Shown here piece by piece: positions 16,088-55,472 of a DNA stretch of 64,000 nucleotides (positions are counted from its first letter, which is position 1; each line of letters begins with the position of its first letter). The notes beneath the pieces are model-generated. The model was given only the letters and a program-made list of their open reading frames with translations, had not been told where the DNA came from and did no database searches. This DNA is from Lepisosteus oculatus (Eukaryota > Chordata > Actinopteri > Semionotiformes > Lepisosteidae), in contig NC_090703.1 in assembly GCF_040954835.1 (NCBI RefSeq), positions 7,745,001 to 7,809,000 on the forward strand, written 5' to 3'. Position numbers and translations under genes: made by a program.

Positions 16088-16408
16088 TAATAATAATCGC
16101 TTACACGTATATAGCGCTTTTCTGGACACTCCACTCAAAGCGTTTTACAGGTAATGGGGACTCCCCTCCACCACCACCAGTGTGCAGCCCCACCTGGATG
16201 ATGCGACGGCAGCCATAGTGCGCCAGAACGCTCACCACATACCTGCTATCAGTGGGGAGAGCAGAGTGATGAAGCCAATTCATAGAGGGAGATTAATTTG
16301 GCCAGGACGCCGGGGTTACGCCCCTACTCTTTTCGAGAAACGCCCTGGGATTTTTAATGACCACAGAGAGTCAGGACCTCGGTTTTAAGTCTCATCCGAA
16401 GGACATGT
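16088..16408 (-). mobile_element. 5S rRNA-derived SINE, 5'-truncated copy A
   Basis: Read on the minus strand, this copy contains the shared body and tail of the two longer plus-strand copies at 26.9 and 44.3 kb: the ACTCTCTGTGGTCATTAAAA block, the CTGGCCAAAT block, the CACTATGGCTGCCGT block, and the end AGTGGAGTGTCCAGAAAAGC then a TTATTATTA-type tail at 16088-16100. The 5S-like head is missing, consistent with 5' truncation at insertion. Confidence 0.8.
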
Positions 16409-17944: not shown

Positions 17945-18092
17945 GGGCTGTATGGACCATCCCAGCAAAAATTCAGTGTCCTGGCTTCTTTCAAGAAATG
18001 GCTGGATAAGACCCTTGCAGTCATGAGAAACTAATTACCAAACAAGCTGGATAATGCAAATGGCCTCTTCTCGTTTGTAATTGTTTTTATCT
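17945..18092 (+). mobile_element. CR1/L2-type LINE 3' end fragment
   Basis: The segment AGAAATGGCTGGATAAGA followed by AATGGCCTCTTCTCGTTTGT is the terminal signature shared by many fish CR1/L2 copies. The same closing phrase appears in variant form at 37.68 kb. It is a short 3' fragment without ORF. Confidence 0.6.
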
Positions 18093-19651: not shown

Positions 19652-20815
19652 TCATTTCTTCTCCCTCTTCCCACTGCCGATGTCGCGAGCTCTGGCTTTG
19701 TGCCGCAGGGCTGGGGCGCTCTTCAGAGAGCTTCTCTTGTCGCTGGACAGCTCCACGGCACCCGGCTTCCACAGCAGGAGCTGTGCATCCTCCCCCCCGG
19801 TGAGCAGAGCGCCCCCTTCAGGGTCCCAGTGGAAGCAGCGCACGGTGGCGGAGTGGCCCCCCCGCAGGGCACACACCTGCTTCAGCCCCCCGGGGCCGCA
19901 GTCCAGGAGGTGCAGATCCCCGCGGTGCGTCCCGCCCAGGACCAGCAGCTTCTCCTCCGCCTCCAGCCAGGCGCCGCCGATGAAGTAGTCCAGGGGTCCG
20001 CCCCCATCGATGGGCGCGGCCTCCCGGGCCCGAGGGGAACTCAGCAGGGTGAGGGGCTCCTCGGTGTCCAGCCGGGCCGTGTCCCACAGGTAGACGCCCT
20101 CGTCGTGGCTCAGGCACAGCAGCTGGCCGTACCCCCGGCCCGCCCAGCAGACGCGGCTGACCGAGGACTCGGAGTTGCAGGTGCCGAGCAGGGCCTCCTC
20201 CTCCGAGCCCCGGCGGATGTCGAACACGTTGACCAGGCCGTCCGTGGAGCCCGAGGCCAGGCGGTCCGGGTCGCGGGGGTGGAAGCGGACCTGGGTGACG
20301 TCGTCGCTGTGGGACTCGGAGTACACCCCTAACGGTGCCCCCCCGCCCGCGCCGCTCCCCGCCATCCGGGCGTCCCAGAACACCAGGAAGCTGTCCTCCT
20401 CCAGCCGCTCCGTGCCGGCACACAGGACGGCGCCGCTGGGGCTGACGTCGAAGCTGCAGAAGGCGTGCGCGGAGCAGCCCCGGAACACCTGCACCGCGGC
20501 CGAGCCGGGGCTGCGCGCGTCCCAGCAGCGCGCCGTGCCGTCGGCGGAGCCGGAGAACAGCAGGCTGCCGGAGGCCGGGGCGAACCTCACCCCGCACACC
20601 GGGCCGCCGTGACCGCTGCAGCGCCCCAGCAGCCTCAGCGTGTGGCCGTGGTGCAGCCGGATGGAGCAGTCGGAGCAGGACACGGCGACCAGCTGGTCCG
20701 CGGAGCCGGCCGCCCGCTCCGCGCACGCCAGCTCCAGGAGGTAGGTGGGCTCCGCCATCGGCTCCGCTCGCCTGGCGATAGCGAGGGCCGCGAACGCGAC
20801 CTCCAGCCTTTCCAT
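19652..20815 (-). CDS. WDR89: WD repeat-containing protein 89
   Basis: This is a complete single-exon coding sequence of 387 residues, the same length as human WDR89, which also has an uninterrupted CDS. The N-terminus aligns with the family (EPTYLLEL near residue 22), and so do CSDCSIRLH (47-55), ADGTARCWDAR (91-101), FLVFWDAR (143-150), YSESHSDDVTQVRFHP (165-180), STDGLVNVFDI (190-200), CLSHDEGVYLWD (234-245), and GGHSATVRCFHW through LLTGGEDAQLLLWKPGAVE (319-355). These are WD-repeat blades of a beta-propeller, and the C-tail is basic. Its molecular role is poorly known; propellers of this type act as protein-interaction scaffolds. I chose the first Met because residues 1-20 align with the family start, although position -3 is C; Met20 is the fallback. 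The exon is far richer in GC and CpG than its flanks. A 5' non-coding exon is expected. Confidence 0.96.
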   Translation of the reverse strand: MERLEVAFAALAIARRAEPMAEPTYLLELACAERAAGSADQLVAVSCSDCSIRLHHGHTLRLLGRCSGHGGPVCGVRFAPASGSLLFSGSADGTARCWDARSPGSAAVQVFRGCSAHAFCSFDVSPSGAVLCAGTERLEEDSFLVFWDARMAGSGAGGGAPLGVYSESHSDDVTQVRFHPRDPDRLASGSTDGLVNVFDIRRGSEEEALLGTCNSESSVSRVCWAGRGYGQLLCLSHDEGVYLWDTARLDTEEPLTLLSSPRAREAAPIDGGGPLDYFIGGAWLEAEEKLLVLGGTHRGDLHLLDCGPGGLKQVCALRGGHSATVRCFHWDPEGGALLTGGEDAQLLLWKPGAVELSSDKRSSLKSAPALRHKARARDIGSGKREKK

Positions 20816-20838
20816 CCGTCCAGCAGCGAGCTGTCCTC
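20816..20838 (-). other. WDR89: Probable splice acceptor just upstream of the WDR89 ATG
   Basis: On the minus strand a pyrimidine-rich tract (CCCCTCCTCCTCTCCC) is followed by GTGAGGACAG, placing an AG acceptor at 20831-20832, about 15 bases before the ATG. This fits the known arrangement of non-coding 5' exons spliced to a single coding exon. I could not place the upstream exon. Confidence 0.4.
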
Positions 20839-23534: not shown

Positions 23535-23845
23535 CTAAGTGTGCAAATGACAGAAGGCCAATAGCCCATCTTGCTTGCTTGGTTAATAATAGCCAATTGA
23601 TCCAAATATCTCAACCAGGCATTTCTTGAAAGAATCCAGGGTACTGGCCTTGACAACATGAAGAAGAGAATTTGCATCGCTGAAGTCCGATCAATACTTT
23701 CCGCTACAGCAAATTGTGTGTAAAATCTGTTAAATAAATAAGTAAATGGGTACATTTTTTGGTGAAGTTTAACAGTTGAATGGAGCACGTGTGGAGAAAT
23801 CTTCAAGGTTTCTGTGTTCTGCTCGTTTACGACTGATCCCACAAT
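23535..23845 (-). mobile_element. CR1/L2-type LINE 3' fragment, minus orientation
   Basis: On plus, GCAAATGACAGAAGGCCAATAGCCCATCTTG begins a block typical of reversed fish CR1/L2 3' regions; it continues with the 'last exposed residues' style motifs around 23.63-23.73 kb and an AAATAAATAAGTAAA stretch. It is heavily diverged, without ORF. Confidence 0.5.
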
Positions 23846-26504: not shown

Positions 26505-26660
26505 GTTAGCTCTTCATACCCGGACCTTGTCAGATCTTGGGATCAAAGCAAGGTTGGGTCTGGTCAGTGCTGGGATGGGAGACATCCAGGTTGTTGTTGC
26601 AAGTGTTGTAAGTGGACCAGGAGGTAGTGCTCTTCCCTTTGGACGAGCAATATTCCATTA
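26505..26660 (+). mobile_element. 5S rRNA-derived SINE head, copy B
   Basis: Positions 26519-26590 align with 5S rRNA internal sequence: a GTCAGATCTTGG block (5S: GTCTGATCTCGG), AAGCAAGGTTGGG, CTGGTCAGTGCT and GGGATGGGAGAC. These cover the 5S internal promoter (A box, intermediate element, C box). The SINE body that follows is short and degenerate. Confidence 0.8.
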
Positions 26661-26879
26661 CGATAAAAAGGAGACTTGGGAAAAGCACTACAGCTTGAGT
26701 TCTTGGAATAGTTTGCAATAGACTGGGGAAAAATATGTTTTACTAATAATGCTTTACATTACTTGTATTGAAAATAAACCCTCATCAGCTGCAAATATGC
26801 TCTAGACACCTGCTGCACACCAGCAAAAACGTAGAAACCTGGCACCTGCGATGACTGACAGCTGAGGGCATTTATAGCC

Positions 26880-27371
26880 AGCAGCCATATCACCCTGAAG
26901 CTCAGCAGATGTGAGCCTGGCCAGTACCTGGATGGCAGACCTCCTGGGATAACTAAGGTTGCTGCTGGAAGAGGTGTTAGTGGGGCCAGTAGAGGGCGCT
27001 CACCCTGCAGTCTGTATGGGTCCTAATGCCCCAGTATAGTGACGGAGACACTATACTGTAAACAGGCACCGTCCTTTGGTAGAGATGTAAAACTGAGGTC
27101 CTGACTCTCTGTGGTCATTAAAAATCCCAGGGTGCTTCTCAAAAAGAGTAGGGGTGTAACCCCGTGTCCTGGCCAAATTTCCCATTGGCCCTTACCAATC
27201 ACGGCCTCCTAATAATCCCCACCTATGAACTGGCTTCATCACTCTGCTCTCCTCCCCACTGAGAGCTGATGTGTGGTGCTGGAGGGGAGTCCCCATTACA
27301 AAGTGCTTTGAGTGGAGTGTCCAGAAAAGTGCTACAGTATGTAAGTGTAAGGATTTATTATTAATGATTAG
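26880..27371 (+). mobile_element. 5S rRNA-derived SINE, long copy C
   Basis: The shortened 5S-like head (CCATATCACCCTGAAGCTCA, then CTGGCCAGTACCTGGATGGC and AGACCTCCTGGGA) is followed by the family body and the tail AGTGGAGTGTCCAGAAAAGT with a TTATTATTA-type end. It is collinear with copy D at 44.3 kb over the whole length. The middle of the 5S head is deleted compared with copy B. The body carries a CTCF-type motif (listed separately). Confidence 0.88.
26986..27000 (+). promoter_or_regulatory. CTCF-like motif inside 5S-SINE copy C
   Basis: CCAGTAGAGGGCGCT fits the CTCF core CCASYAGRKGGCRSY at every position. It occupies the same place in the SINE body as the motif in copy D. Confidence 0.55.
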
Positions 27372-29050
27372 TATTTGAGAAGTTGTTTGGGTGAGCTCAG
27401 TGATACTCTGACCTCCTGGAAACCTAAACAAATCCTCTGAGGCCCACACCACGAGTACAGTCTAACTCCTCTTGGAGACAGTTCAATGAGACAATGAGAA
27501 TGGAATCGATGGCATTTAACACAGTGAACTGGAATGTTTTGAACAGGTTTTCCTTTAACAATGCCTCATTTCCCCCTCCCTCCTGAGATTCGTGCGTTTC
27601 CACTGCTCAGCAGTTTAGTGTAACACAGCCTAGAGCAAACTGTAACCTGGAAAACCGGATCCTTTGAAATGGACATTAATATTTCAGTCGATGTAAATCA
27701 ACACGCTAAGAAGAACTGACACAGGCCTAACGCTTAAAGAGTATTAAACCAAGCAAAGTTCACACAGAAGAGAAAGGTTTTCCTTATGTGCCAATGGAGT
27801 CGAGCTGCTCAGGAGAGAAAGCTGATTGCAGGTGCAGGGTCTGCATGCACGAGGACGAGGACCAGAATTAAAAATATGCTCCTACAGGCTAGAACACTTA
27901 TGATACAGAATAAGAGGTCAGACTGCTTTTTAGAAATAAATCAGCTCCACACCGTGGTGACCAAATGTATACTTCTCCGTTTATTTCTAATTAAAAAGCA
28001 AAACTATTTGCAGTTATCGACATATAACTCATAACTGTTGGAGCATCACAAAACCAAGGTAACAGGTTGTGGTGGTGGATGTTGATGTTCTGCGATTTGA
28101 CCGTCACCCTGTGTATATACAGATCCCCGCCTTATTCAACTTATTCAACCTCCACGGACAGAATACCACTGGAACAAAACACCAAGCACAAAACAGAGCA
28201 AGCACAGTAGTAAACTGGCAGCTTGCCCGTGTACATCATGCAGGGCCTGAGGCAGATGGTCAAATTATAGAACACTTATATCACAGATGCAGAAGTGGGA
28301 AGGTTCCTATGCAAGGGAGGTTGCTCATTTAAATATAGCAGGGCTTTGTATATACATTATACAGTACACACACGGCATTTGAATTTCCAGATACTCCCTG
28401 CGCTGGCGAGATGAAATGATACACCCGCGTTGTCGGCTTTGAAGTGAGTTACCAGCACGTGCCATTTTGAAGTTCCCACTAATCAGAAAGTGCCAAATCA
28501 CCCAGTCCTGTGAGAGCTTTCACAGGTACTGTGGGTATTCTTGTGCTTTTGTTCTCAGCAATAAGATTTCTGCCCACAGCAAATGCTGACTAAACCTGAG
28601 CTGGAACTACAGTATGAGCTCAATGGACCGTTCTGACACAGATTACCTCTAGATTACTCACTTTTTTTAAACCGACTTAAGCAAACCACAGTCCTCGTCT
28701 GACGATTCCTGTCATATAAATGCCAAAACTGCAGGGAATTGTCAATCAGTTCTAACACCCGACAGCAGGTGGTTTGGCGTTTGTCAATCAGCTGGAGACG
28801 GCAGCAATTCAAGGACACTTTCTGGTGTCTGGTGTAGCTGAGGAGGTCAGTTCTGGAATGATCAGACCTGACGAACCTCCATACCGACTACAATGACCTC
28901 CTTCAGCATTACCACCACGCCTTCTGATTCACAGCCTGATCAAAAAATATAAATATAAAAATAAATGTATGTTTCTAAAAATAAAATGTGACACTGTTTA
29001 CAACAGTTAAGAGCTTGTCCCCAAAATATGGAGATGTCTCTTTTGTGCAA
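27372..29050. other. WDR89-SGPP1 intergenic region
   Basis: No coding sequence is recognised. It ends with an AT-rich stretch near 28.93-29.0 kb. Confidence 0.35.
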
Positions 29051-29052
29051 AT

Positions 29053-32000
29053 TTTATTACGCAGGCCACCAATCATTAATTCTGGACAAACATTTTACTA
29101 AAGAGAGCAATGAAGAATAAAAAAAAAAATCAAAGCAATGAAAGGATACAGAAGTTGTTTTAAACAGATGCCCTTTAAGACACACAAAACTGAATTCTGT
29201 ATTTACAAGTGCAATTGCTACAGGATGACCAGACATCAAGTAGTTAAAGACAAATAACAGTTGGAATACACAATGGACCCATATGTACTCATATATTGTT
29301 CTTCTTCAACACATTCTAAAATTCTTTCAGAAGATAACTGCAGCCTACTTTTCTGAAGCACAAGAAGATGCATGAAGGCTTCAGTGCTCCTGGACATAGA
29401 CTTTATTACAGTAAAGGCACTAGGGTATCTAGAATAACAAAGCTGTACTCCTCTCCACAAAACTAGGGGACGATTTCTTTTTTTTGGTCAACATTTCATA
29501 GTAAAAGCTACCATCCATTTGCACAGTTTCTTTAAATTTGAATTTTCTTAACTTCAGAATGCACCAATGCAAAGCTTGGACTGGACACTGCATTGGCAGG
29601 AACACGTAAGAACTTAGAGACAGTAAAAAAATGCAAACAAAGACGACATTCTTCTGCCACCAAACTGATGACTTACAGGGTTTTGAGCCTAATGAGACAG
29701 ACTTTTAAGCTCATGTGACTACTTGACCACGACTGCTTCAGGAATAGTCTTTAACTACTGCTCCTGTCTGCCGCGAAAACTGAACTTTCATCTTGAAACA
29801 GAATAGTAAAGGTAGGAGAGGAAACATTCATCTTGGATAAAATCAAGAGAAAAAAAGAGTATGTATGTAAAAGCGAGAAGAATAAAATGATCTGGGATTA
29901 GATTTAAGGGCAGAAAACTATAAAACACTACACATTGATCTGTACGACACCAGGTTTACTCCTGTGTTTGTTAGGATGTACATGGCTTGCTGGAGTCTGA
30001 GTTGGGTTCACAACCCTTAGTGAAAGACTAGGACCTGATGTTTTGTGCTCTGCTGGCTTTCCTTGCTGTAAAGTAAAGTAAAACAGTCGAATCTGAAGGC
30101 CAAATAAAATCCATACAACACTGGGGACTGGTAACGTCCAGGGGTAAGGCTGCCTCAGATGGGATACTCAGTTTTATTGCTTTCTACCGATTTAATAAAA
30201 AACAATCTTAAAAGAGGAATGGCTATCCTAAACAGAACTATCCCCAAGATTAAAATTCAGTTCACAGCGTTTCAATCAATGGAAAAGTCGATCAAAAGTA
30301 GTTTCTATGCTGCAGAAGACTACAAGTTATAACATCTCCTTATTTCAATGTAATTCAATATGTTTTCCTAGCAGGTGACATTTGTAAAACCAGTAGTTTC
30401 ACATAAATGTGATCATAGATTAAAATGAGCAGAGTTACAGCAGGCAACTGCAAAACAAAGGCACATTTTTTTTTCTTGACAAAACTGCATGCAAGCTCAA
30501 AATAACCCTGACTTTAGAAATCCAACCCTGTAAAATCCCATTCATAGATGTGACACAATATTCTTAATTACACCTTTCCCAACACTGAGATCACTGGAAC
30601 AAAACAAGCACAAGACAAGGAGAAATAAAAAAAACAAAGGAAACACAGAAAGCCTCTCTGACTCCTGGCTTTTCTTTTTTCTCAGAGTGGCTGCACTGCA
30701 GCCTCTCTGCACGAGCAGAGGACAGAGTGAGGCAAGAGCACTGCAGTCACAGAGCAGGGAACCAGAAAGAAAAAGCCTGCCTGCTTTTAGTGGTTAACAT
30801 TCTGTAAATCTCTTCTAATCCAAGGATATTCCTTCTTCAAATAACAGTGCCCTTTTAAATTCACAATTTTGTTTTGTACAAATGAGGTCTTACAGTATTT
30901 ACTTATAATTTATGTACCGTACAAATGCAATAAAGAGCTTGGTAATTTTGGAAGCGAGACAATGAATACTGTATAAGACTGAATAAGCTCTTCCATCCTG
31001 TTCAGTTGGATTCCCCAAGACCTTCAAATGCCCAAAAGCTGCCCTTTCCAGGTGAGCCTTGTGTGAGGGGATAGGCCATGAATGAGAGCAGATAACTACA
31101 GCAAGACCAGAAGCAGAGGCGCACAGCATGGGCTGAGCGGTTCTTAAAATCCGACCGCAGCATTGAAACTGTTTTCATTGTGACTGTGCTCTTTCTCCGG
31201 GGGACACCTGCAGGTCGGACTTGGCGGCTCATGATAAAGCACCTCCCACCAGAGCTGCTGCAACTGCGCCCATCGCCCATCGCCCAGTTCGCGGTCATTG
31301 GTCACCAGCTCGGTGGCGCGGGAAGGGACGGCTCTACAGCGCATTCCGTAGAAGGACAGACGCCAGATTGTCCGAGACCCAGAGTGCGGCTCCTTGTTCT
31401 CCTCCTATCACTCTCATGCCATGCCGCCCACTGTGGGATTGGGGGGTGGGGGGTGTTCAGATTCTTTCAATATTTACATGACATTAATAAAAGCATTACT
31501 TGCAGCCACAACTCCACAGCGCCCTCCTGCTTAATGAGGGTAGCAGCTTGTCGTGATGTGTTGTCTTGTGTTCAAGGTCAGCCTGACCTCTTGACTAGAG
31601 ATACTTCCTAGTTCCCCCACTCCCCCCCCCTTTCCTGACCACCTCCTTTCTGGAGATTTTAGCCCAGGAAGCGACACGGAGCTTCTTATACAAGATGTTC
31701 AGTCCACAGGAAGCCAGTGTACGAGGCCCAGGCGGCTTTCAGCTCAGTCAGGAAGCCACCGGCAGCCCTGCCCTGATCCAAAGACTGAGATTACTCAAAG
31801 GGAAACAGGAAGACCAGGAAGCGACTTCCAATGTCACGAACACGAACACAGTCAAGGTACGTCTACTGGGCCGCACACCGGAAGAAATCTATTATAAGTG
31901 ATGCTTCCTTTAACCATATGATGTGCTTGTTCATGGCTTCACTCCTAACAGTCCTATCAGCACTAAAATCTGTTCTTCAGCTCTATGAACACGTTTTGCA

Positions 32001-32826
32001 CCACTGTGGGAGACAATCCACAGGGAACTGGAACAGAGCCCTTTGGGAGGAATAAAAAATTCAGTTCCACATACAGTACATCGGGTTTTTCGAAATACCT
32101 ATTCTAACAGAGATCCCTCAAATTAGGAAGACGGAGAATACTCAAGAATGTCCGATATGGGCCGGCGGGTGAGCCTTTGTCTAAAGGAGGAACTAGCATG
32201 GCCTGTAGTGGAGACTGGATCTCTGTCCGCTGGGCACGAGACCCGTGTTTCTGCCGGTTCTCTCGGGGTGCAGGGTGGTGAACGGCAGGGGGCCGGATGC
32301 AGAATCTTCACCAAACGAATGAATTTGCGTAATCAGTCTTGTATCACCCCCATCTGGGGTACACAGCGCCCTTCCGCTGGGACAGACCCAGATGTGTTCT
32401 CCCAAAGAGCCCGGATTCCAGCCCGCTTCATCAGTGCTGCGAGCAAAAAGGCACAACGAGCCGCACGACGAACCCGCATCCCAAAAGTGCCTTCTTTTCA
32501 GGCCGGCCGGGCCGGACGCCATTATCAGCTGAAGGTAGCCGCTCTGCAAACTGCCTGCAAGCTGCGGAAATAGAATTTCTTTCTTTTTTTTAAAAAAAAA
32601 AAAAAGGTAACATAAAAATACAAAAATGAAAAACAATGACCAAAACGAATCATCAACAAAAACGCAATAAAAGGCAGCAAGTGGGAGCAGGAAGTGGTCG
32701 ATTTAATCCACTCCCTCCCGTGTCGGCTCTGGAGACGCAAGGAGCCGGGGGGCCGAGGGGACTCGGGGTCGAGGGGGGTACGCGGGGGACGTGTGGAGAG
32801 AAGAGGGGAGGAGCTCCTCCCCGGCA
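29053..32826 (-). other. SGPP1: Probable SGPP1 3' UTR and downstream flank
   Basis: This stretch follows the SGPP1 stop codon on the minus strand. Candidate AATAAA poly(A) signals on the minus strand occur near 30.17 kb and at 29053-29058. Which one is used cannot be told, so the real 3' UTR may be shorter. An A/T homopolymer junction sits at about 32.58-32.61 kb. Short open frames at 31.1-31.6 kb and 32.1-32.6 kb have no recognisable homology. Confidence 0.35.
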
Positions 32827-33378
32827 TCAGAAGAGGTTGAGGTAGCTGAAGAGAAAGGGCACCAGGAACAGGGCGTTGAAGCCCACAGTGCCGTACACGA
32901 TGTAGCGGTAGGGCAGCTCCACCTCCATGCGCTGCCGGGCCTGCCGCACGTCGTGGCACGGGATCCGGAACAGCCGGCAGGCCAGCGGGATGGTCAGGGC
33001 CTTCATCACGGCCCGGGTGGCCAGCAGCACGGCCACGCCCAGCACGAAGCGCACGAGGCACCTGCCCACCAGGGCGGCGCTCAAGGGCGGCGGGGAGAAA
33101 GGCAGCTGTGTGAGCGGGGGGTCGGGCATCAGGCCCAGCAGGTAGTTGAGGTGGGACGCGCAGGCAATGCCGGCCCCCGTGCCCAGGATCTGCGCCGTGT
33201 CGCCCCGGGACGTGCTCCAGGTGTCCAGGGTGAAGGAGAACACCCCCATGGCCAGGTGCAGGCTGATGATGATGAGGGGCGCGTAGCGGCAGGTCAGGTT
33301 GAAGTTGTCGATCACCTCCAGCGCCGGATGGAACGCCACCAGGATCAGGATGCTGTACAGGAACCCCACAACGACGTC
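32827..33378 (-). CDS. SGPP1: Sphingosine-1-phosphate phosphatase 1, coding exon 3 (C-terminal)
   Basis: This exon encodes residues 300-482 and the stop. It begins exactly at the Asp that ends the third PAP2 phosphatase motif ([11 protein letters not shown] from exon 2, then D). After it come hydrophobic segments at about 304-316 and 332-350, the conserved block FSFTLDTWSTSRGDTA (347-361), further hydrophobic segments around 404-420 and 457-478, and the conserved ITIPLACRLFRIPC and ARQRMEVELPYRYI blocks. All are characteristic of vertebrate SGPP1. The acceptor is TTGTGCAG|GAC, phase 0, preceded by a UG repeat 40-56 nt upstream. The exon is GC-rich. The C-terminus ends SYLNLF, close in length to the family end. 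Confidence 0.96.
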   Translation of the reverse strand, partial: DVVVGFLYSILILVAFHPALEVIDNFNLTCRYAPLIIISLHLAMGVFSFTLDTWSTSRGDTAQILGTGAGIACASHLNYLLGLMPDPPLTQLPFSPPPLSAALVGRCLVRFVLGVAVLLATRAVMKALTIPLACRLFRIPCHDVRQARQRMEVELPYRYIVYGTVGFNALFLVPFLFSYLNLF

Positions 33379-33417
33379 CTGCACAACAGCAGAGGACATG
33401 CAGATCAGACGGCGCGT

Positions 33418-33434
33418 ACACACACACACACACA
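33418..33434 (-). repeat. SGPP1: (TG)8 tract upstream of the SGPP1 exon 3 acceptor
   Basis: Plus-strand (AC)n reads as UG repeats in the SGPP1 pre-mRNA, 40-56 nucleotides before the exon 3 acceptor. Confidence 0.9.
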
Positions 33435-35761
33435 TCAAAAACGCCGGCAGGCTAACAGCTAGGAAAGCAGCGCAGCGCAGCTTCCACGCATTAATCACCG
33501 CCGCCCTGGGGCGTCTCCCCGTTTCTCGTTCGAGTCGTGCAGAAGCAGCACGACGGATCACACTCAGAGCCCAGGCCACGGCTCCCAAAGAAGGAACCCC
33601 CGACCCAGCCATAATCAGCCGTGAAAATAGTGAACACACGTGTTCCTTGGTGCGATGTGTTTTGACGTGGGGGAAAAAACAATAGCCATATTCAAATTGC
33701 GGACTGCACAGAAATATTCCACCATCTAAAGGTACTATTGGATATGCAAATGCTACCTTATGCAAAACGTTTTATTCCAATTAAAAACAATTCAGCTGAC
33801 TGAAGCTCTCAATGAATGGTAGCAAAAAGAAGTCTCTGAATGGCAGGTTGAGAGGGTCTTTGCTAGCCTGCCCTCAAACTGAAATTATATACTACTGATT
33901 GATGGATTATTGGTTATTGTTGCACATTAAAATACATTTTATTTTAATTCAGTAAAGTATATATTTACCTCTTGTTTACAGTTCTATTAATACATTGTTT
34001 AATAGAGTAATAAAGTGTTAATACAGCGTTTTTATATTTTAAGCTACAGAGAGAGGAAAAGTGTGTAACGATTCTCATGTCAGCGTTTGGGTATACTGTT
34101 CCTGTTCAGCACAGCTCTTCAGAAACTGGCTGATCCAAAGTCCCCTGAACTCTTTCACAAGCGCTGCCCAGTCCCTGAGAGGCTGATAGCAAACCACAGC
34201 CAAACAGGGACCTCCGATTTAAAATCTGGGGTCCATTTCAACTCACAGCAGACAACGGACCTCTGAACATGAACCTTCTCTTTGTTCTGTCAGTACTATA
34301 CTGGTGTCTGTTCTTCTCTACTATAACTGTTGGGGAAGGGTTTTAACTGTATGTTATTTATGAGCACACAACTGGTCATTCTGATTTCCTCTTGGGCCTG
34401 AAATATTTTGACTAAAAATGACTTACAGCCCCATTTGGTCTTTCACCTCACAAATAAGAGATATTCGAGAAAGCTGGAAAAATGCGAGTTTTAGACAAGA
34501 TTAAAGATATACTACTGCCAGGCTCTCACTCTGGAAGCAATGCATTCTGCTTTTGCAATAAAGTACTCTTGGTGACAGAGTGCCTCCTCCAATGATCTTC
34601 ACAAAGGTCTGAGCTTTCTGAAATCCCTCTAATCCTAGAGAAACCCCCATAGGTTTTCTGGCTTGGCTGCTGTACACAAGACAGGATTGATCAGCTGGCT
34701 TGTGCTCTAAATGCTATTAATCCTTCAGTACACACACCTCAGCCTCCCAGAGAGCAGACTCCACTGAGCCACGCAGTCTGCACAGAGCTGCCGACAGAAT
34801 CAGCTTGAACACAGAGCGACAGGGCAGGCATACTGCACCACAAGAAATGTGGTCCCTTGAAGAGGACTCTAACCCAAGTCCAAATTTAAGAGCCAGTCAA
34901 ATCCCTGGGATCCAGAAAGCCCAAAAGTGGCCAATGAAAGTCTTAATGCCAACATTTCCTATTTTTAATTAATTGAACTGTGTTCTGTATTGCAGTATCA
35001 CTGTATTGCATGGTGTAAGTATTAAGGCTCTGTGCACATCAGGCTGAACCTTTTAAAAACCTGTTGGCTTCAAATATCTCTACTGTATATTAATCTTTAG
35101 TCTCCTACCACACTGAAAGCCGACTGCAGGGCTGCAGGAAAATGAAATCAGCTCTCGCATGGGGCTGACTGACATGAGAGCAGCTCTCATATCTGGCTAA
35201 TTGAGGCTAGTGACTCATCCCTGCAAACAGATAAGCATCAGCAAGGGACTTGTACACAAGGACTGATAAAGCATCCAATGAAAATGAGCTACAGGGGAAC
35301 AAGGAAAGCGCAGAAGAAAACACTTCATTCTAGTATTCACTCCACAGCAGGTAACAGGAGAGGACAATCTGTCTGGGACAATAGGAGTCTCAGACCGTGT
35401 GTAAATGAAGTAGATTATAATTAGTTAAATGGATTCACTTAGAAGACGCTCTGTCTAAAGTCAGGAGTGTGTAACTCAATTATCCCTGTCTGGATTTATA
35501 ATGAATGAAAGTATGAACTTTTTAGACAAAAAAGATTTCAAACATGCATTTATCCATTCGACTGGACCTGAAATGAGCAACGGTTCACTTTGAATACAAC
35601 ACAACAGCCAAGTCAAACAACTGTGTGAGATGAAAGGTAAATGTCTGTGGCTTTGCTACTGAAATTGAAATTCAAAAACAAATTATTTGTATGAAGAGTA
35701 TCAGTCTCATTACTATTTGTTCACTTTCAGTGTTATTTTATTGTGTCTTAAGGCGAATGCT

Positions 35762-35905
35762 GTATCATTCTGAATGATACTTTATGTGAATTTGAAATTA
35801 ATTGCACTAAAAGAGACTATTTATCAAGACCGAGCGCCAATGAGTCAGGTGTTTGAATTCACAGTTTTTTTTGTAAATAGTAAATACAACTGTTTTAGTG
35901 CAATT
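35762..35905. repeat. Inverted-repeat cluster in SGPP1 intron 2
   Basis: A 9-bp-arm palindrome (GTATCATTC T GAATGATAC, 35762-35780) is followed by AATTGCACTAAAA at 35800-35812 and its exact reverse complement at 35893-35905, 80 bp apart. This could be a decayed MITE or a cruciform-prone AT-rich element. Confidence 0.6.
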
Positions 35906-37624
35906 GGTGGACACATCTTATTCACAGTCTAATTCATAACTATTTTGGAGGAATTCACCCAGAATCCATATTATTCTACATGTCATTAAAACACAAAACT
36001 GGGCATGTTCACTGGGTGTCATTACACGAGAACAGCTCTCATGTCAGCCTGGATGACGTGTCTCCATGGGTCCCTGCTTCTGCAGGGTGCCCCAGCCGCT
36101 CCAGGCCCACCTCAGTCAAAGGTTTAAAGGTCAGTTCAAAGGTCAACTGCCCACTTCTCAGTGACCTGCAGCAGGAAAAGTGTGGAGACTGCGAGCTAGA
36201 GAGCTTCATCACAAGGAAGGGCCAGCCCATGCCAAGCCAGCACAGCCTGCGCTTGTGCCTTAGAGAGTGCGGTTTTTATCTCCCACGCCCTGGTCCTCCA
36301 CGGAACTGTGCTTTCTTGAGGAGGTCCTCTGACCAGGCAGTGCAGCAGGGCTCAGACTGACGAGGAGGCACAACGGAGAGCCAAGCTCACAGCTAAAACT
36401 GACAGTGTTCCCAAAGTCCTTTATAGATGAGGCAGGGGAAAATCAACATTTAAACAGGCCTTAAGTTATACTGAAATCTCATGTGTGTTTCTAAAAAAGC
36501 AAGGGAAATCTGTGCATTTCATACGACACACTGAGCTCTTAGCGGTACTGAGGAGTGCTTATGAACTGAGTGTGAAATTCCAGGGAAGCTGTGATACAAG
36601 ACCTCTGCACACATTCTGCCTCAACCGCTGTTGGGACTAGAGCCATCCAGCTCGCTGCCCTCTGACCCCACGCCCCTCCATGTGTTGCTGCCAGTGGGAT
36701 CACTCTGATGAGCGCCAACATGGGAGAGCTAAGCAAAACCCCGAGCAATGGGGGGTGTTGTAGCTCGGTAGGGACTGCCTTTGTCCCAGTGATGCAGGGG
36801 AGTAGGAGAGTGTAGACTTCACTGTACTGCAGTCCATCTCCATCTGATGATTCACAGCTTTCCCATCTTTCACAGTAAGCTTATGGCTTTCACTGTAACA
36901 TGAAACATTACTGACACTACCATGCCACTAAGAAAACCAATACTTTTGAGGAAAAGCAAATTGATTTATTTATTTTTTCCCCATTTGCAGCCTTGTAAAA
37001 CATTTGCACAAGTTTTATTTATCCTGTCTTCGCATGCAATGTTTTCTAATTCTGAATCATTTATTACATACGGATCCGCTTCATGTTTCGTTGGACGTAT
37101 GTTTAAACGTACATAAAACATGCAAGAGTGCTGTCTTTCACTGAGCATTTATTTTGAATGTTACTTTCTGTTCGTCTGTTCCTTTCCTAACAACACCGAG
37201 TGTTTCACACAAGATTAAATGAACCACGTCCATGGGCCAATAAAACCATTGGCAGCAATTCACACAGAGACCGTGAATGTGCTGCCAGCGCCTGCTCTCC
37301 TATCTGCCTGTGATCCCCGAGACGCAGGAGCCCACAGCCCTGCGTGACCAGCCCGACCTGCTCTTCCTCTGGCCTCTGCAGGCCCCATCACGCAGACCAG
37401 CCCTACGGGGTCCCGGCTCTCTCTTCCATTCGGCGGTCTTGAAAGGGCAGCTCTGAGGCCCGATTAACGAGACCTCATTCTCGCGTCCAAGAAAAGCCAC
37501 AGACACCGTTAATACTGTAAACTGGCAGGCCTCTGAACCTGAAACTGGCATAAAACGGGTCCGTGGGAACCTGAAACACGCTACCTGGCCTTGTTGTTGA
37601 AGCCGATACACTGGCTCCTATCGA

Positions 37625-37725
37625 AAACTGGCCGCATGACATTCCTGGATCAATAAACTATTGAAGAGCTGGAGGAGCCAAACGGCCTTCTCTTGTTTGG
37701 AACCATTTTTATGGTCTTAAATAAG
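37625..37725 (+). mobile_element. CR1/L2-type LINE terminal fragment
   Basis: CATTCCTGGATCAATAAACT followed by CCAAACGGCCTTCTCTTGTTTGG resembles the closing phrase of the copy at 17.95-18.09 kb. Very short. Confidence 0.5.
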
Positions 37726-40700
37726 CACTAACTTGCTTCAACATACTGTATATGCATGCCTGCTTTGGCTGGGTATTCACATGCATTTGAAATCTTGTGA
37801 TCTAAAGACCGTTGCTCAGCACTTAAATGAATGCTAACATAAGGAGAAACAACACTTTACTGATTTTAACCCCTTTGCGTAAAAACACTGAGGTTCACTG
37901 ACCGAGAAATGCTAGACGTCAATTCTTTAAGAGGACAGAAGGGCTACCCAGCTACAGCAGAATTTGCCAGAAGTGTCACTGACTCGGTGATTAAGTGCTC
38001 ATTGACTGGAAACGAGCTGTGGGTCTTGCACAATCACATTCTGGAAGCTGGAAGGAGACTCGGGATACTGAACCAGAGGAAACTGTGACCTGGGAACTTA
38101 AGATAAGGGAGACTAATGTACGCAGAAATTGAGTAAACAGAGAGCACAAAAAAACCTCAATCACAGTTTCATGATAAAGGCCTTTTCTGACGTGCCACCA
38201 GAATCATAGATTGTGATAAAACTGAAAACAGCGTAGGAGCTAAGGTCAAAGCTCTTGATTTATTAAATTCTTTAAATACACAAACCACAGAACAAGACTG
38301 TCATTTACAGTCTCTACTGGCATTTAAGCTACTTATATGCTTCTGACACAACACCAGTAAAGAATGGCTCTCTGCTGTTACACGTACAGAGCAAGGAGAC
38401 TAACCACAAAATGTTACCATCAGACAGACACCCAGTGCCTGGGGCTATTGATAAACAAGCTAGAATTAGACAGCACATTATCCTTACGCTGCCTCCTCAA
38501 GACTTTCCAAGTCTTTCTCTGCCCGAACACAGCAGGAACTCTACCGAACTGTATTACTGTACGAGCTAGCTCTCAGTGCGTGCCTCCTTCAAGACAGAGA
38601 GGCCTCAGAAAAATTTTGCAATGCTCCTGCCTCACCTTCCTGTCTTAGTTTCTTAACACTAGCACTAACTGACGTTCGCCACGCCAGTGAAGTCTAAAAG
38701 CTTGGCTTAGCACTACTGAACGTTTGCCTTAAAAGTGAAAAAGTAGCCTGGGCTCTGCACGGGTTTGCTGGCATCTTTGAGAGCTGTCGTGTTGTGTGAT
38801 CCCCTCTGAAGTCATGGCAATGGTTTCCAGTAAAGGGAGCACAGACACTCCTTACTGACCACAGAGAGCGCTGTACTTGTGAAGAAACAGCATTCTTGTT
38901 CGCAACAATGCCTATAGGCTGATTTACAAATGCTATAGACCCACTAATGTCTGTGCCTTTCTCAATGACATGCTGTATGTCTTTTTCCAGTTACAGATAG
39001 CTCAAAAGGATACACCGATAAATGGGCAGAAAGCTTTAATAAACCTTTCGATCTTGGCTAATTTACAGCACAACAGTCTAGTCTGCATATCTTGATGCGT
39101 TTGCCTAGCAAATCGCTTTGTAGAACCAAAGAAATCTACCCCCCACCTGAACAGATTTTTCTCTCTATAGCAGACAGAACCTTACTGTGTTACAGAAGAT
39201 GTCTGTAAAAGGCAAGGCAGTGGTGACTCATACTCATACTCTCACTGTAGCTGGCACTAGAAGGAAATCTGTTCTATTTCTGCTGACTTGTTCGGTTGGA
39301 AATTGCAGGGGAAAGATCCATGTAATGAATTATGATAAGGCTTTTATTGCACAGAAACAGTCTTTTAAGAGGACAGGCACTCATTTAAATAATGGCGACT
39401 CTTAACACTTTAGCAAGGTGGCATATTGGTTTCATGTCTCCTGCAGGGACCTCAGTAATGACATAAAACAGGCAGGGCTCAGGGCCCAGAGCTACACAGC
39501 GCTCAGCTCATCATGTGGATAATCCCCACAGCTACAGCATCTGGCACTCAACAGTGCTCAATTCAGTTTAATAGTGTCACAGTTACATGTACTGTAAATC
39601 GAGCATTATCATTAAGACTGAATATGCTTTCTTGCGAGACATCTTAGCTTTCATTCACACCCAGTCCCAGTCCATAGTTTTTCATCCCACTAAATTCTTG
39701 CTGTTCTGCAGCAGATCACGAGACCTGAAGACGAGACTCCAGAACTCAAAACGCCTGACTGCTTGAGTGATGTGGCAGAGAGTGATGTCAGCGGGGCAGA
39801 CGGAGCTGCTGGGTTGTTTCAGCAGCTTTTTTAGGTTTGTAGTTTCCAGTTTAAAGTGTCAATTTCTATTTGATTTATCTACTATGTAAACAATACACAC
39901 AGATGTACTTTCTGCACTGAACATTCAATGTGATCCAGTGCACTACAGACTGCTCCTAAACCTGTAGTTATTTCCTGCCTGCAATTTTACCTCCTGTGAC
40001 TTTTTTGGCATTTGTTCTTATTAGCAATAATTAATAGGCCTGTTTTATTTGTATTTCTGAGTACCACTGTCTATGACAATGTCCTTAATGATATGAAAAT
40101 GAATAATTATACTAAATGCAATTAACTGTATATTAATTATTTGTATTTAGTATATTGAGTCATAAAACAACTTTTGACTCGCAGAAAAGAGCTTTGCAAG
40201 TGACTCCTGGGAGAAAGTGAACAATATTCACAAGCAACACCTATGTGGCAAAGAGTACATTAGGGCAGGTTAATAAAACAAGGACAGCAAGTACTCAGAT
40301 CTACAGAGTAGCCAACAGCTAGCACAGAGCAGGTCAGAGAATGTGTAAGGCATCCAGCCAAACAGTGATTCTGCGAAGTTCTGAATTCTGGGGTTATAAA
40401 CTTCCCTCATTTACTTTTACTATATTACTATTCACTATACACTTGGTATACTTGCACAGCTGAAAGGCTAAAAAAACTTTCTGTCAGCAATGGTGGTTAG
40501 AAAGAGTGAAAACCTCCCTCCTTCTGTTTATAACCTCAGCAGTGATGCAATGCAGATATTGCAATCCTGTTCGGATAGCTTCTGCTTGTTTTTCAAAGCT
40601 TTGAAAGGTTGAGAAGCATATGTTATTTGGGACAGCTGCACCTTGGTTATTTTTCTTATATACTTTGCAGTTCAGTAATTTGAATGTAAGTGCATCATCC

Positions 40701-41021
40701 ACATTAATAACAATAGAGGAGATTTTACATAAAACACCCAAGCATGAGAGGATGCTATAAGATGTTAATGACATACCATGGGTAGTTTAATGGACTTGCA
40801 GAACCAAAGAATCTTCTCTCCAAAAGCTTTGGGGATCCAGCATCTACAAATCAACCTGCTTTTCTAGTCCCATGGTTAGAAAGAACTTGTGTTTGGAGCA
40901 CGTTCCTGTCCTAGTGCAGGAGACCACTGGAGGGCCTAACTGAGGTGACTACACACCTCAGGTCAGTGCATATACCGGGAACCCCTAAAGATATGAAAAC
41001 ACACAGAATCTTGTCTCTTAC

Positions 41022-41111
41022 CAGGATAGAGTGCATCCCCATGTAGATCCTGCTGATGCACACCAGGGAACACCAGCACACTGCCGAGGCCAGGCCCAGC
41101 AGGAAGGGGTA
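41022..41111 (-). CDS. SGPP1: Sphingosine-1-phosphate phosphatase 1, coding exon 2
   Basis: This 90-bp exon encodes residues 270-299 (starts [11 protein letters not shown], ends [11 protein letters not shown]), in phase 0 on both sides. It supplies Ser289, Arg290 and His296 of the third PAP2 motif SRxxxxxHxxxD; the final Asp (300) is the first residue of exon 3. In the PAP2 superfamily this His accepts the proton relay from Asp and acts as the nucleophile that forms the phospho-histidine intermediate. Splice sites are GGCTTCCAG|TAC and CTG|GTAAGA. The segment [19 protein letters not shown] is almost identical across vertebrate SGPP1. Confidence 0.96.
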
Positions 41112-42984
41112 CTGGAAGCCGAGAGGGCGGGAGGAGAGAGAAAGAAAAAAGGCAGTTGTCAGTGTTTGGATATCAGTATTTGTAGTCCTTGACAGTACAA
41201 ATCTCTTCGCTTTCTCGGAGACTAACACTGTGACCTGCCTTGTCTTTGGCGAACTCATTCAAGATGCTGAAAAGGCTACAAGAGAAGCTGTGGTACGGAG
41301 GGCAGCTCCCCAAACTGGGGGACGGTCTACTCAGGAAGAAATGAGGGAGGGCTTGTGTGTGTGATCCTAAAGATAGGTGAAAAGGAATGTACAGACTCCA
41401 TTGTACTTCTGACCTGCAAACTCGAGGGTAAAGCATACAAATGAAGCAGGAAAGCCAATCTGATTTGTTTTAAACGAGGTGACAAGCAACACACATCCAG
41501 CACTTGATACTGGTATCAATAAAAAAAAAAAAAACACAGCTTGTAAAAACAGGACATGGCTTAGACTGCCAGTCAAAGAGAGACACTTTTTTTTTTTATT
41601 CCTGTTGCCATGTCAAATGAGTCGAATGAAACTGGGAGATGATACAGGTTAATTCCACAACCAGGTGGACCGAATCTGAGTCTTGGTCTACCCTGCAGTA
41701 ATGGCAATTTGACTCCAATTCCTGGCCCTGCTGCGCTCCAGTACAATAAGATGAGTCCTTCCCTCTGAGAGGCAGAGTCACACACGGGAGTACAACAGTC
41801 TCCCACAGCAGAGCAGCAATCCGAGCCCCAGCGCAGCCACACCTCCGACTGTAGGCTCAACAGAACAGAGGTGTTTAAAAAGCTACTGAACAGCACACAA
41901 AATACACAGGGACGAGTCTGGTTTAGTATCCACATCAAGCCAGTTGTGGAATCCTATAATCACAGCGAGTGGCACAAATCTACATGCCTGGGCAGATGCT
42001 CTTCGTTATGTTCTCCCTCAGAGAAATGGACAAGTGCCATAATTCCCAGCAGCGCTGGGCTGGGTACTACAGAACTGCTCGGCCGCACTGGCTGGCTCAC
42101 TTGTTCACCTAGAGCCCTTATCTCAGCTCACGCCGCCAGGCGCGGGGATGGTGCATAATTGATGAGATCATTGTCCTGACCACCTGCGCAGGGAGGACGC
42201 TGACGATGCCCCAGGCTGCCCCTCTTCAGGGGCTGATCCTTCAGTTGGGGGTGGGGAGAGCTCCACAGTGGGCAGAACTGCTGAATCAAATATCTTCTAC
42301 CACCGGATAACAGTTTATGGCAACGACACACACATGCAGGCGAAAAAAACCCTGAACACATGGAGCCTGAACCCCCAAACCCAAGTAAGTAGAGAGCAGT
42401 GGTGACAGGGCTGAGGAAAGCTTTTTTATTTCCCCTGCCTGCCCTTTCATATGTTTTATGTCTGGTTACAATTTATTTCCAGCAGAAATGTCAAACTCCT
42501 ATCCCTCTGGCACGGCTCCATTCAGCTTCGGTGTGCTGGCTTTAGCAGCCCAAAGCGCCTGTGATGCTCCGCTAATCCTGTGATGCAAACAGAAGGCAGC
42601 ATGTCCCTATAGGCTCTGGACCACAATCAAACCACACAGTACAGCACAGGAACTTTCACTTCAAGAAGTGCAAAGAAACACTACCGTTGGCCTCCGTCGA
42701 AACGCCTGGTGGTGATTTTAAATTCAAAATCCTAAATAACACTGTATTAACAGAATCTAACAATTTAGATTCTAAATAAATTGTATTTAGAATTTCACTT
42801 GTTCTGGTCTTTAATAAAAGGTTTGTATTTTGTAGCACGGGGAAGATGTATATCTCCCGTCACACTGCCTAGCTCATTACAGCACTGGTTTCCACATCAT
42901 GATAAAGAGATATGAGCTTTAGGAACAGTCCAGAAAACAGAAACCGGACTTACAGCAGGGGTAAAGGACAGACAGATTAAAAAA

Positions 42985-43235
42985 GGCACAGTAACCTCTT
43001 CAGCCCTATAAAGGGACAGTTTAGGGGAGACATGATTGAAGGTTTTTGAAACCTTTTAAGGGGATCGATAAAGTTAAACTTATTTGTTATTTCCAATTAA
43101 GTGCAAGGGTATTTAAAGACATGGAATACGCAGACAAAAATGTGGAGGTCGTTTTAAAGTGCGTAGGGATCAATTAATGCCCTGTAAAAGAAAAGGTGAG
43201 CTCTTTGGGACTGAACGGCCTGTTTTAAATGGATG
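42985..43235 (+). mobile_element. CR1/L2-type LINE 3' fragment
   Basis: The sequence GGGGAGACATGATTGAAGGT, followed by TTTTAAGGGGATCGATAAAG and later GACTGAACGGCCTG, is the 3' UTR-adjacent region typical of vertebrate CR1/L2 copies ('GGGAGACATGATTGAAG...'). Stop codons are frequent. Confidence 0.6.
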
Positions 43236-44298
43236 TATTTCCGTCTTTTCTCACGATTTCTCTTCCTATCTAGAGGCCACTAGACAATTCTGTATGTCAT
43301 CTGTGTAATATGTTACACTTTTTATCTGGGCTGCACTACAACAAATTCCAATCAGCGTTGCTGACATAGCAATAACGTACTGAATCAAACTGAACTGAAC
43401 TGAATAACTGCTTGCTTTGCTACAGGTGTGGACGATTCCTGTGGCTTGTCGTAGCTCACTACCTGACTGACAAACATGATTCCGACCCAAAAGAAAAACA
43501 CAAGAGCTAGTTACATTAAACAGATCAACTGATATGAACCATGAACAAAATGTTAACAAGTGTTCTTACTGCTAACACAAACGTATTTACTATAACACAG
43601 TCTGTGTACTTAAAACACTTGCATTGCGTCTCAGAAAGGAGTGAGGGCAGAGTAACAACACTCAAACTGGGTTATTCGAGTCAAAATGTCTTCCTTCCTG
43701 GAAATGCGACAAAGGATTTACCCAAAAGGGGGGTATTCTGGGGACTCAATCACTGTTACCACTGGGGGACACAATCACTGTTACTTCTGATTAGTAAGAA
43801 CCAGACAAGTCAGAAAGTCTGATCATGGGAGGAGAGCTTTCAGTCCATCAGGGCTGTTCCTCTGGTCACCTTACTCTCAGCAGAATGGCACTTCATTGGC
43901 TGTGCGTCACCAGAGGTGCAAAGTCGAGCTGAAACAGACTACCTTGTCCAGAGCTTATCTCCGTATCCGCTGATCCGTGTTTCCACGCTGCCTGGCGTGA
44001 CAGCAGCACAGCAGGCCTCCTCTTCCTGAATGCTAAGAGGCTGCTTTGGTAGCCGGCTCTCCTTGACCAGCTCTGTTTATCGATGCCAGATGCAGGACTG
44101 GGACCCCTGTGGCAATTTCTCGCAATCCAGCAGGATGTACGGCTTTATGACCCAAAGGCTTGCTGTCAGACGCGAGTAAATATCTTATTTGTCAAGAGGG
44201 ATGTCAGGGTCATGGAGGTTGGTGTTACTGAATTAAACATGGAGTTTGCTGCAGGCACAGAAAGGCATCAGAGAGATGTCCACGCTTGTCCACACTTG

Positions 44299-44863
44299 CC
44301 AGCAGCTATATCACCCTGCAACTCACAACTGGCAGCCCCACTGAAGCTCAGCAGGTGTGAGCCTGGTCAGTACCTGGATGGGAGACCTCCTGGGAAAGCT
44401 AAGGTTGCTGCTGGAAGAGGTGTTAGTGGGGCCAGCAGGGGGCGCTCACCCTGCGGTCTGTGTGGGTCCTCATGCCCCAGTATAGGCGACAGGGACACTA
44501 TACTGTAAAAAGGGGCCGTCATTCGGATGAGACTCTCCGTGGTCATGAAAAATCCCAGGGCATTTCTCGAAAAGAGTAGAGGTGTTACCCCTGCATCCTG
44601 GCCACATTTCCCCCTGGCCTTGACCAATCACGGCCTCCTAATAATCCCCCTCTCTGAACCGGCTTCATCACTCTGTTCTCCTGCCCACTGAGAGCTGGTG
44701 TGTGGTGATTGTACTGTGTGCACTATGGCTGCTGTTGCATCATCCATATCCAGGTGGGGCTGCACATTGGTGGGGGTGGAGGGGATCCCCATTACCTGTT
44801 AAGCTCTTTGAATGGAGTGTCCAGAAAAGTGCTATGTACTGTAAGCGTTAGGAATTATTAATT
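44299..44863 (+). mobile_element. 5S rRNA-derived SINE, long copy D
   Basis: The head shows the 5S-like blocks TATCACCCTGCAACTC, CTGGTCAGTACCTGGATGGG and AGACCTCCTGGGAAAGC (5S: TACTTGGATGGGAGACCGCCTGGGAA). The body is collinear with copy C, then with copy A, ending AATGGAGTGTCCAGAAAAGT and ATTATTAATT. It includes the segment GCTGCTGTTGCATCATCC that copy C lacks, so it is the most complete of the five copies. It lies in SGPP1 intron 1, antisense to the gene. Confidence 0.9.
44432..44446 (+). promoter_or_regulatory. Canonical CTCF motif inside 5S-SINE copy D
   Basis: CCAGCAGGGGGCGCT is a full match to the CTCF core consensus, with GGG before it. It sits in the SINE body at the same position as the motif in copy C. 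Confidence 0.6.
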
Positions 44864-50409: not shown

Positions 50410-50601
50410 AACAAGTAAAGGTTTATTCCAGGCTGAAAAGAGAAGAAAAGAAACGCAACGTTACAGCTGTGGAGCCTTCTTCAGGTGTCCACTCTGTCCT
50501 CTCCAGGTCTTCCGCCTGAAGACACCCGAAGAAGACTCCACAGCCGAAACGTTGCGTTTCTTTTCCCCTCTTTCAGCCTGGAATACATTTTTACTTGTTC
50601 C
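50410..50601. mobile_element. Inverted pair of retroelement termini, possibly Penelope-like
   Basis: Two arms of about 80 bp are reverse complements with substitutions, separated by about 30 bp. The left arm, read on minus, has CCTGAAGAAGGCTCCACAG, then AACGTTGCGTTTCTTTTC, then CAGCCTGGAATAAACC and ACTTGTT. The right arm on plus has CCGAAGAAGACTCCACAGCC, GAAACGTTGCGTTTCTTTTC, CAGCCTGGAATACA and ACTTGTTC. The copies are head-to-head with tails outwards, and the left tail keeps AATAAA. Terminal sequences of this type recur in fish genomes, and I associate them with Penelope-like elements from memory; this is not proven here. Position: SGPP1 intron 1, about 0.9 kb after exon 1. Confidence 0.55.
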
Positions 50602-51473
50602 TTTACAGCCAGCGCATGCTACCTGCTCGAACTGCTCCAGCCTTTCACCCTGACAGAAGTGTAACCGGAGAGGACAGCGGAGGCCCACAGGAAGGTGTGC
50701 GTGCTGCCAGCCGGTCTGTCACAAACACCTTTCCAACACCACACCGCAGCCCTCCAAGAGCTCATCACATGCGAGGGGGGGGGGGGTGATGCTTTTTCTG
50801 GCACTCTGCTAATCAAATGATGAGATGTTTCTTATGTATATGCACAGAGGGCGGCCTGCGCCTGATGGCACTCCTGCAGATCAGCGTGTCGGAAGTGCCG
50901 GGGCGATGCTGTTGAAGCCGTGCCCTTGCGTCACGTGCGCGCGCGTTCCACGGGGAGGTGCAGGAAGGGAGCGCACCGGCACGGCGGGCCTGACGGAGAG
51001 GCGCAGGCATCAGGCAGGGCCAGCTGGACCACCTGGGGCCGAGACAGAAGGAGCCGGTTGTGCAACCGTGTCGCCTTGCGACAGCGGCAGGGCAAGAATC
51101 CGGCGAGCGCAACTTCAGCTGTCACATCCTGTGGTGGAAATCAGGGACACTGCAACCCCGTCTCACCTGAAACTTTCCCACAGGAAAGCCTTCAATAGGA
51201 CTGCTGCTATGGTGGTATCTAACATGCTGCTAGAATTAGTCAAGTGTGCCGGTGCATCGTCCCGGGATAAGCAGTCCGATGCACAGGGAAAGTTGGTGTA
51301 ACTTTACCTCCGGACACAATCCCAAGCCCTGCAGGTTTTGTCACTCTGCAGCAGTTAATAACGTATTCATTAAACCATCTGCTGCCTCCCCGGCTCTTAC
51401 TCGACACAGCGCTGTCACAGCCAGGTAAATACGTACGTGCCTACAGGCATGAATAACAAAACAGCCACTTTAC

Positions 51474-54940: not shown

Positions 54941-55275
54941 TAACCTTCTTACCTGATGCCTCATCAGATCTCACAGGCTAAGAAAGGCTGGGCATCGTCA
55001 GTGCTGGGGTGGGAGACCTGCAGCCAGGGGTGTTGATGGACCCATAGGTGGAGTGGAATGTAAAAACACATCACCAGTCCTTCAGGTGAGACGTTAAAAC
55101 AAGGCCCTGATTAATTCATCATTACAAATTTCGGGACACTGCCCGTTTCAACAGGGGTGTTAGTCCCAGTGTCCTGACAAAATCCTACTTGGCTTGTACA
55201 GTCTGTCCTACCTGGTGTCCCCCATAAATTCAATTGCTGGAGCATAATGGCTGCCACATGTCATAGACACCTAAC
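54941..55275 (+). mobile_element. 5S rRNA-derived SINE, copy E, diverged
   Basis: The 5S-like head is present (CTCATCAGATCTCACAGGCT, then GTCAGTGCTGGGGTGGGAGA, CCTGCAGCC), followed by family body blocks (CAGGTGAGACGTTAAAACAA, GGGGTGTTAGTCCCAGTGTC, GCATAATGGCTGCCACATG). It is the most diverged of the longer copies. The CTCF-motif position is degraded. Confidence 0.75.
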
Positions 55276-55458
55276 CAAGCATCACTAATACTTTAAAACA
55301 TGTTTGAAGATTTTCACGGTTTTAATGGAGTGGCGTCAGAAGAAATACGTTTGATAAAGGTGATCCGTAACGTGTTTTACCATGCCCTACAGTCTAAATA
55401 ACATCGCAATGGTTAAGAGTTCTTTGGAATTAGGTCTAGAAATTCTAGATGGGACACG

Positions 55459-55472
55459 AGCGCCACCTCGTG
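55459..55472 (-). promoter_or_regulatory. CTCF-like motif, minus orientation
   Basis: Read on minus, CACGAGGTGGCGCT matches the right 14 bases of the CTCF core CCASYAGRKGGCGCT, with G at the Y position. It is outside the recognised repeats. Confidence 0.4.

Follow-up and report, generated by a model that had tools for sequence, protein, structure and literature searches.

CTCF-type core motifs at the homologous position of two old 5S rRNA-derived SINE copies in Lepisosteus oculatus

The DNA analysed here is a stretch of 64 kb from Lepisosteus oculatus (NC_090703.1, positions 7,745,001 to 7,809,000), called the window below; motif, matrix and repeat results hold within it. It contains an SGPP1-like gene, an adjoining WD40 open frame and five places related to a short interspersed nuclear element (SINE) whose head resembles 5S ribosomal RNA (rRNA). 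The two best-preserved copies carry a CTCF-type core motif 12 bp behind this head. The copies, named by their position in kb, and their motifs are listed in window coordinates.

44298..44863, + strand: 5S-derived SINE copy of about 566 bp, the best preserved; 51.5 bits with Rfam 5S_rRNA (44298-44416); 3' end approximate, from the alignment to the other copies
44429..44447, + strand: CTCF-type core motif GGGCCAGCAGGGGGCGCTC; 23.5 bits, rank 1 in the window; 12 bp 3' of the Rfam 5S match
26877..27366, + strand: second full-type copy; Rfam 5S_rRNA 40.9 bits over 26877-26970; 3' end approximate
26983..27001, + strand: CTCF-type core motif GGGCCAGTAGAGGGCGCTC; 21.8 bits, rank 2 in the window; alignment columns homologous to the 44.3-kb motif
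26520..26638, + strand: diverged 5S-SINE copy with a 5S-like head and a motif-homologous stretch; the bounds are those of the tested part, not true ends
26614..26632, + strand: decayed motif form GGACCAGGAGGTAGTGCTC; 8.5 bits, homologous position in the 26.5-kb copy
54952..55370, + strand: old, degraded 5S-SINE copy; head 54952-55029, 3' end uncertain
16088..16404, - strand: fragment of 3' body and tail; blastn 75.9% against the 44.3-kb copy (319 columns) and 71.9% against the 26.9-kb copy (324 columns)

The CTCF matrix JASPAR MA0139.1 was used for scoring; its maximum possible score is 27.4 bits. The 15-base cores CCAGTAGAGGGCGCT (26986-27000, + strand) and CCAGCAGGGGGCGCT (44432-44446, + strand) both have 0 mismatches to the consensus CCASYAGRKGGCGCT. 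They are the sole such matches among the five places with ≤ 2 mismatches, a number which was not reached in any of 100 shuffles (mean 0.94). Three places in the window match the looser consensus CCASYAGRKGGCRSY in full, one of them, at 21904-21918, lying outside any SINE found. With the matrix, the maximum over 100 shuffles was 20.4 bits, compared to 23.5 and 21.8 bits for the two SINE motifs. Matches of ≥ 15 bits numbered five in the window, while the shuffles had a mean of 0.68 and a maximum of 3. A full-text literature search with six short pieces of the element gave a single paper, which is CTCF-related (PMC8269367) and prints the 44.3-kb core. CCAGCAGGGGGCGCT agrees in every base with the five-triplet sequence quoted there as predicted from the specificity of CTCF zinc fingers 3-7.

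Both strict motifs occupy identical alignment columns of the 44.3- and 26.9-kb copies, the same 12 bp past the 5S-like head. The initial annotation had placed full matches to the CTCF core at 26986 and 44432, in the same body position of the two best copies, and this was confirmed. A CTCF core at a fixed position of the element, as known from B2-like SINEs carrying CTCF sites, was observed in two of the four window copies with a 5S head.

The 5S relationship was determined with Rfam, the gathering score of 5S_rRNA being 38 bits, and by pairwise comparison with a 5S reference sequence. Two of the five copies exceed the gathering score (44.3 and 26.9 kb), and four of five have a head which matches 5S pairwise well above shuffled sequences. 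The 26.5-kb head is identical to 5S positions 28-98 at 54 of 71 sites (score 74; maximum of 300 shuffles 29) and the 54.9-kb head to positions 28-99 at 55 of 78 (score 60; maximum of 300 shuffles 28). Neither of these two heads gave an Rfam 5S match, their 5S likeness being pairwise only. The 26.9-kb copy has one internal deletion in its 5S head and another in the 3' body. For the 16.1-kb fragment, neither a 5S match nor the motif region was found by pairwise 5S comparison and alignment, respectively; its 3' tail is common to the 44.3- and 26.9-kb copies.

Comparison of the 44.3- with the 26.9-kb copy gave 51 differences in 451 aligned columns (30 transitions, 21 transversions), which corresponds to a Kimura two-parameter distance of 0.123. 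The 26.5-kb copy scored 68 against the 44.3-kb copy (maximum of 200 shuffles 36.5). The body of the 54.9-kb copy, taken from 55060, scored 56.0 against the 26.9-kb and 62.5 against the 16.1-kb copy (shuffle highs 33 and 34), and 34.5 against the 44.3-kb copy, barely above the shuffle high of 34. In an ungapped repeat family with the 26.5-kb head as reference (D3), identity to it is 74% for the 54.9-kb head and 62% for the 44.3-kb head. On these comparisons, the window holds one superfamily with at least two lineages rather than five like copies. Five copies of one 5S-derived family had been annotated initially. The five places are indeed related, but the 16.1-kb copy has neither head nor motif region and the 26.5- and 54.9-kb copies are more diverged.

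SINEs whose promoter derives from 5S rRNA form the class SINE3 (PMC10886601). Besides the heads, the short, dispersed and multi-copy character of this class was found, with five related places in 64 kb of which the longest has about 566 bp. Target-site duplications were searched at four of the five copies (44.3, 26.9, 16.1 and 26.5 kb; all old); none was found at 44.3 kb and the best elsewhere were 6-7 bp long, which was judged to be within chance. Stray copies were searched in viral contigs, with 0 matches for each of two exact patterns, and in plasmids and phages, with none. One match in prokaryote contigs, from Streptomyces, had an aligned stretch of 23 bp and was discarded as chance.

The strict motif is present in two of the four 5S-headed copies (44.3 and 26.9 kb) and decayed in one (26.5 kb). 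In the latter, 26614..26632 is the top-scoring place on either strand and the runner-up scores below 0 bits; as a site it is weak. Pairwise alignments of the 26.5-kb copy to both good copies place the motif exactly there, whereas the five-way MAFFT alignment places it one base off. A motif remnant placed by eye at 55038-55056 of the 54.9-kb copy (3.65 bits) was rejected, since the alignment to the 44.3-kb copy puts this stretch upstream of the motif. As the motif is homologously placed in the two best copies and present in decayed form in a third, the source SINE probably carried the CTCF core motif and spread it. Since the best matrix place of the 26.5-kb copy is the homologous one, the motif was probably present before the lineage of this copy separated.

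We therefore favour, with reasonable though not high confidence, an explanation in which these places are old copies of a 5S rRNA-derived (SINE3-class) retroposon whose source bore a CTCF core motif that was copied with each insertion. The source element would have combined a head with a 5S-type RNA polymerase III promoter, presumably active, with the CTCF core CCAG(C/T)AG(G/A)GGGCGCT about 12 bp later, and the family consensus would contain this motif. Each retrotransposition would have set the motif at a new site, with its orientation fixed relative to the element, and the spread may have been genome-wide. After insertion, copies would drift neutrally and carry the motif passively, whether it is kept or lost. 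Copies keeping it would be latent candidate CTCF sites, on which methylation of the motif's CpG may have an influence. The methylation sensitivity of CTCF is position-dependent and is called an open question in PMC8269367. CTCF could bind at each of the two good copies, which share the + strand, and cohesin arriving from one side could be stalled there; occupancy of this kind might also affect the SGPP1-like gene.

Several results weigh against this explanation. Just four headed copies are present in the window, of which two keep a strong match and one a decayed form, and pairwise alignment of the 54.9-kb copy gave no stretch alignable with the motif. By eye, no upstream M2 partner was found in the 30 bp before the motif on comparison with the M2 consensus. 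Within the 19-bp motif, 2 of 19 sites differ between the 44.3- and 26.9-kb copies, compared to 51 of 451 overall; 234 of 541 alignment windows of 19 columns, the motif window among them, are as well or better kept. Neutral decay was simulated with half the observed divergence per copy, both with and without a sixfold CpG decay, and both copies stayed at ≥ 20 bits in 13-31% of the trials. In the two copies, a comparison of low power, no sign of post-insertion selection on the motif was detected. The proposal of the initial annotation that a 5S-SINE spread CTCF sites is supported in part, by the homologous motif in two copies and its decayed form in a third. A comparably strong match at 21901 indicates that SINEs are not the sole source of good matches in the window. 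The motif contains a CpG, and zebrafish transposable elements (TEs) are reported to be highly methylated (PMC9341505). Furthermore, the enrichment of SINEs at boundaries of topologically associating domains (TADs) is stated in PMC9077971 to have exceptions including non-mammalian genomes, perhaps from poor assemblies.

Among 11 CpG sites present in either copy, three are kept in both, one of them inside the motif. A conservation signal in the first 144 aligned columns, which include the motif (10 differences, versus 41 in the remaining 307 columns; Fisher p 0.055), was not used, because a window kept at least as well occurred in 33% of 5000 permutations (p 0.33).

Of the alternatives, the one surviving best is that the motif is a chance resemblance in the SINE body, never relevant to CTCF and common to two copies through their parent only. 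Two copies of one parent amount to one observation, and the neutral-like conservation as well as the 54.9-kb copy fit this alternative. We nevertheless hold it to be unlikely, since a match of about 21.8 bits or better is expected just 1.1e-4 times per 566 bp under an independent-base model with the base composition of the element, and 2.3e-5 times at 23.5 bits. Between lamprey, chicken and human, CTCF motifs are also reported to be nearly the same (PMC5504073), and therefore a match this strong is likely bindable whatever its origin. It is very improbable that what is preserved in the GC-rich stretch is an RNA hairpin of the transcribed SINE and not a DNA site. GCAGGG ... CCCTGC, flanking the 3' half of the motif in the 44.3-kb copy, could pair, but the fold z-scores of three copies (0.49, 1.71 and -1.29) show that stability is not unusual, and the structures differ. 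As judged by eye, one of the two motif differences of the 26.9-kb copy would break the stem, while neither departs from the CTCF consensus. Equally little credence is given to copies acting as CTCF-independent boundaries through their 5S-type polymerase III promoter (TFIIIA/TFIIIC), for which the 5S stretch GGATGGGAGAC, almost unchanged in three heads, and the description of CTCF-independent SINE insulators (MIR) and TFIIIC-bound Alus (PMC8143547) speak, but against which the heads carry deletions (26.9 kb) and many changes.

The surroundings of the copies comprise the following genes and further matrix matches.

32827..33771, - strand: open frame with the last coding exon of the SGPP1-like gene; the first exon of this gene lies within 51441-52367 and the middle one within 40911-41258
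19652..20836, - strand: WDR89-like WD40 open frame, adjoining the SGPP1-like gene; Pfam WD40 1.2e-22, no NCBIfam match
21901-21919, + strand: non-SINE CTCF-matrix match; 20.1 bits, rank 3 in the window; about 1 kb upstream of the WDR89-like frame
55458-55476, - strand: non-SINE CTCF-matrix match; 15-20 bits; about 3 kb upstream of the SGPP1-like first exon
58956-58974, + strand: non-SINE CTCF-matrix match; 15-20 bits

The minus-strand gene is assumed to be SGPP1, and the WD40 frame likewise to be WDR89. Searches gave no Pfam match for the frames 32827..33771 and 51441-52367, and no PDB or NCBIfam match for 51441-52367. The 44.3-kb copy lies antisense in what is presumably, from the exon order, intron 1 of the SGPP1-like gene. 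The 26.9-kb copy is located downstream of this gene. Five non-SINE matrix matches (21901, 55458, 58956, 56577 and 43756) were compared with 320 bp around each, and nothing else alike was found in the window. The match at 55458 is reverse-oriented and convergent with the SINE-borne motifs.

Other repeats were seen in the window. An inverted repeat at 50437-50573 has arms of 53 nt, which are 89% complementary and 31 nt apart, and resembles a small hairpin or an element of the miniature inverted-repeat transposable element type. The pair 17974-18052 and 23568-23646 forms a 79-nt inverted repeat with 71% complementarity, possibly another old repeat family. At 2447-3040, long open frames overlap that are made up of a short repeated unit (in one frame AGRETGGEQPSRQSRPG-like); this appears to be a GC-rich minisatellite.

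Regarding known systems, the body and tail of DeuSINE elements presumably also resemble those of the window family. In this superfamily, e.g., in AmnSINE1 (SINE3/5S), a 5S-type head is followed by a long body, but in the available parts of the papers AmnSINE1 is described for enhancers and not for CTCF (PMC5753468, PMC8143547). Like the window family, rodent B2, dog (Lys) and opossum (MIR-family MAR_Mdo) SINEs hold a CTCF core in their body which was copied to new sites; B2 carried it to more than 10,000 mouse locations (PMC3368268). For these three, occupancy was measured, whereas the window family, which has a 5S head, is known from sequence alone. Transposon-borne CTCF sites outside mammals are exemplified by lamprey, in which CTCF peaks overlap hAT, long terminal repeat (LTR) and SINE/tRNA-V repeats (PMC5504073). 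The lamprey cases, such as hAT-Tip100 and SINE/tRNA-V, concern DNA transposons, LTR elements and a tRNA-type SINE, and the hAT-Tip100 motifs are without CpG, whereas the window motif has one.

The closest likeness is that to zebrafish SINE3-1a, a fish SINE belonging, as taken from its name, to the SINE3/5S class and listed with those TE subfamilies that show an enrichment of CTCF-bound sites (Lee et al. 2022, PMC9341505). It contributed 1016 CTCF-bound sites, inferred from footprints of the assay for transposase-accessible chromatin (ATAC). SINEs made up 7.0% of the TE fragments in zebrafish and 11% of those in CTCF sites at TAD boundaries (same source). Binding was determined there from ATAC footprints compared with CTCF chromatin immunoprecipitation sequencing, in contrast to the motif matches used here, and the two elements are likened by description, not by sequence. 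The initial annotation took the spread of CTCF sites by a 5S-SINE to be undescribed; in this general form the claim fails, because the effect is already in print for another fish. Among the matches listed, judged on titles and abstract openings and with most subscription papers outside the search, no 5S-SINE/CTCF report besides PMC9341505 was found. The new lineage and the exact position beside the 5S head may be new.

A wider interpretation, which is speculative and which we consider doubtful, is that the CTCF core beside the 5S head would be an ancestral vertebrate 5S-SINE module, predating the split of the 26.5-kb and the 26.9/44.3-kb lineages and common with zebrafish SINE3. A single SINE superfamily would then have supplied several vertebrate lineages with oriented CTCF sites over a very long time, perhaps because the element itself profits from an open site to which CTCF is bound.

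For the window alone, the finding matters little: it amounts to two latent candidate sites in the neighbourhood of a single gene, and these copies show no sign of selection. If the motif is in the family consensus, the family would join zebrafish SINE3-1a as another 5S-SINE that spread CTCF sites in a non-mammal, and since its copies differ in age, the rate at which such sites disappear or persist could be tested on them directly.

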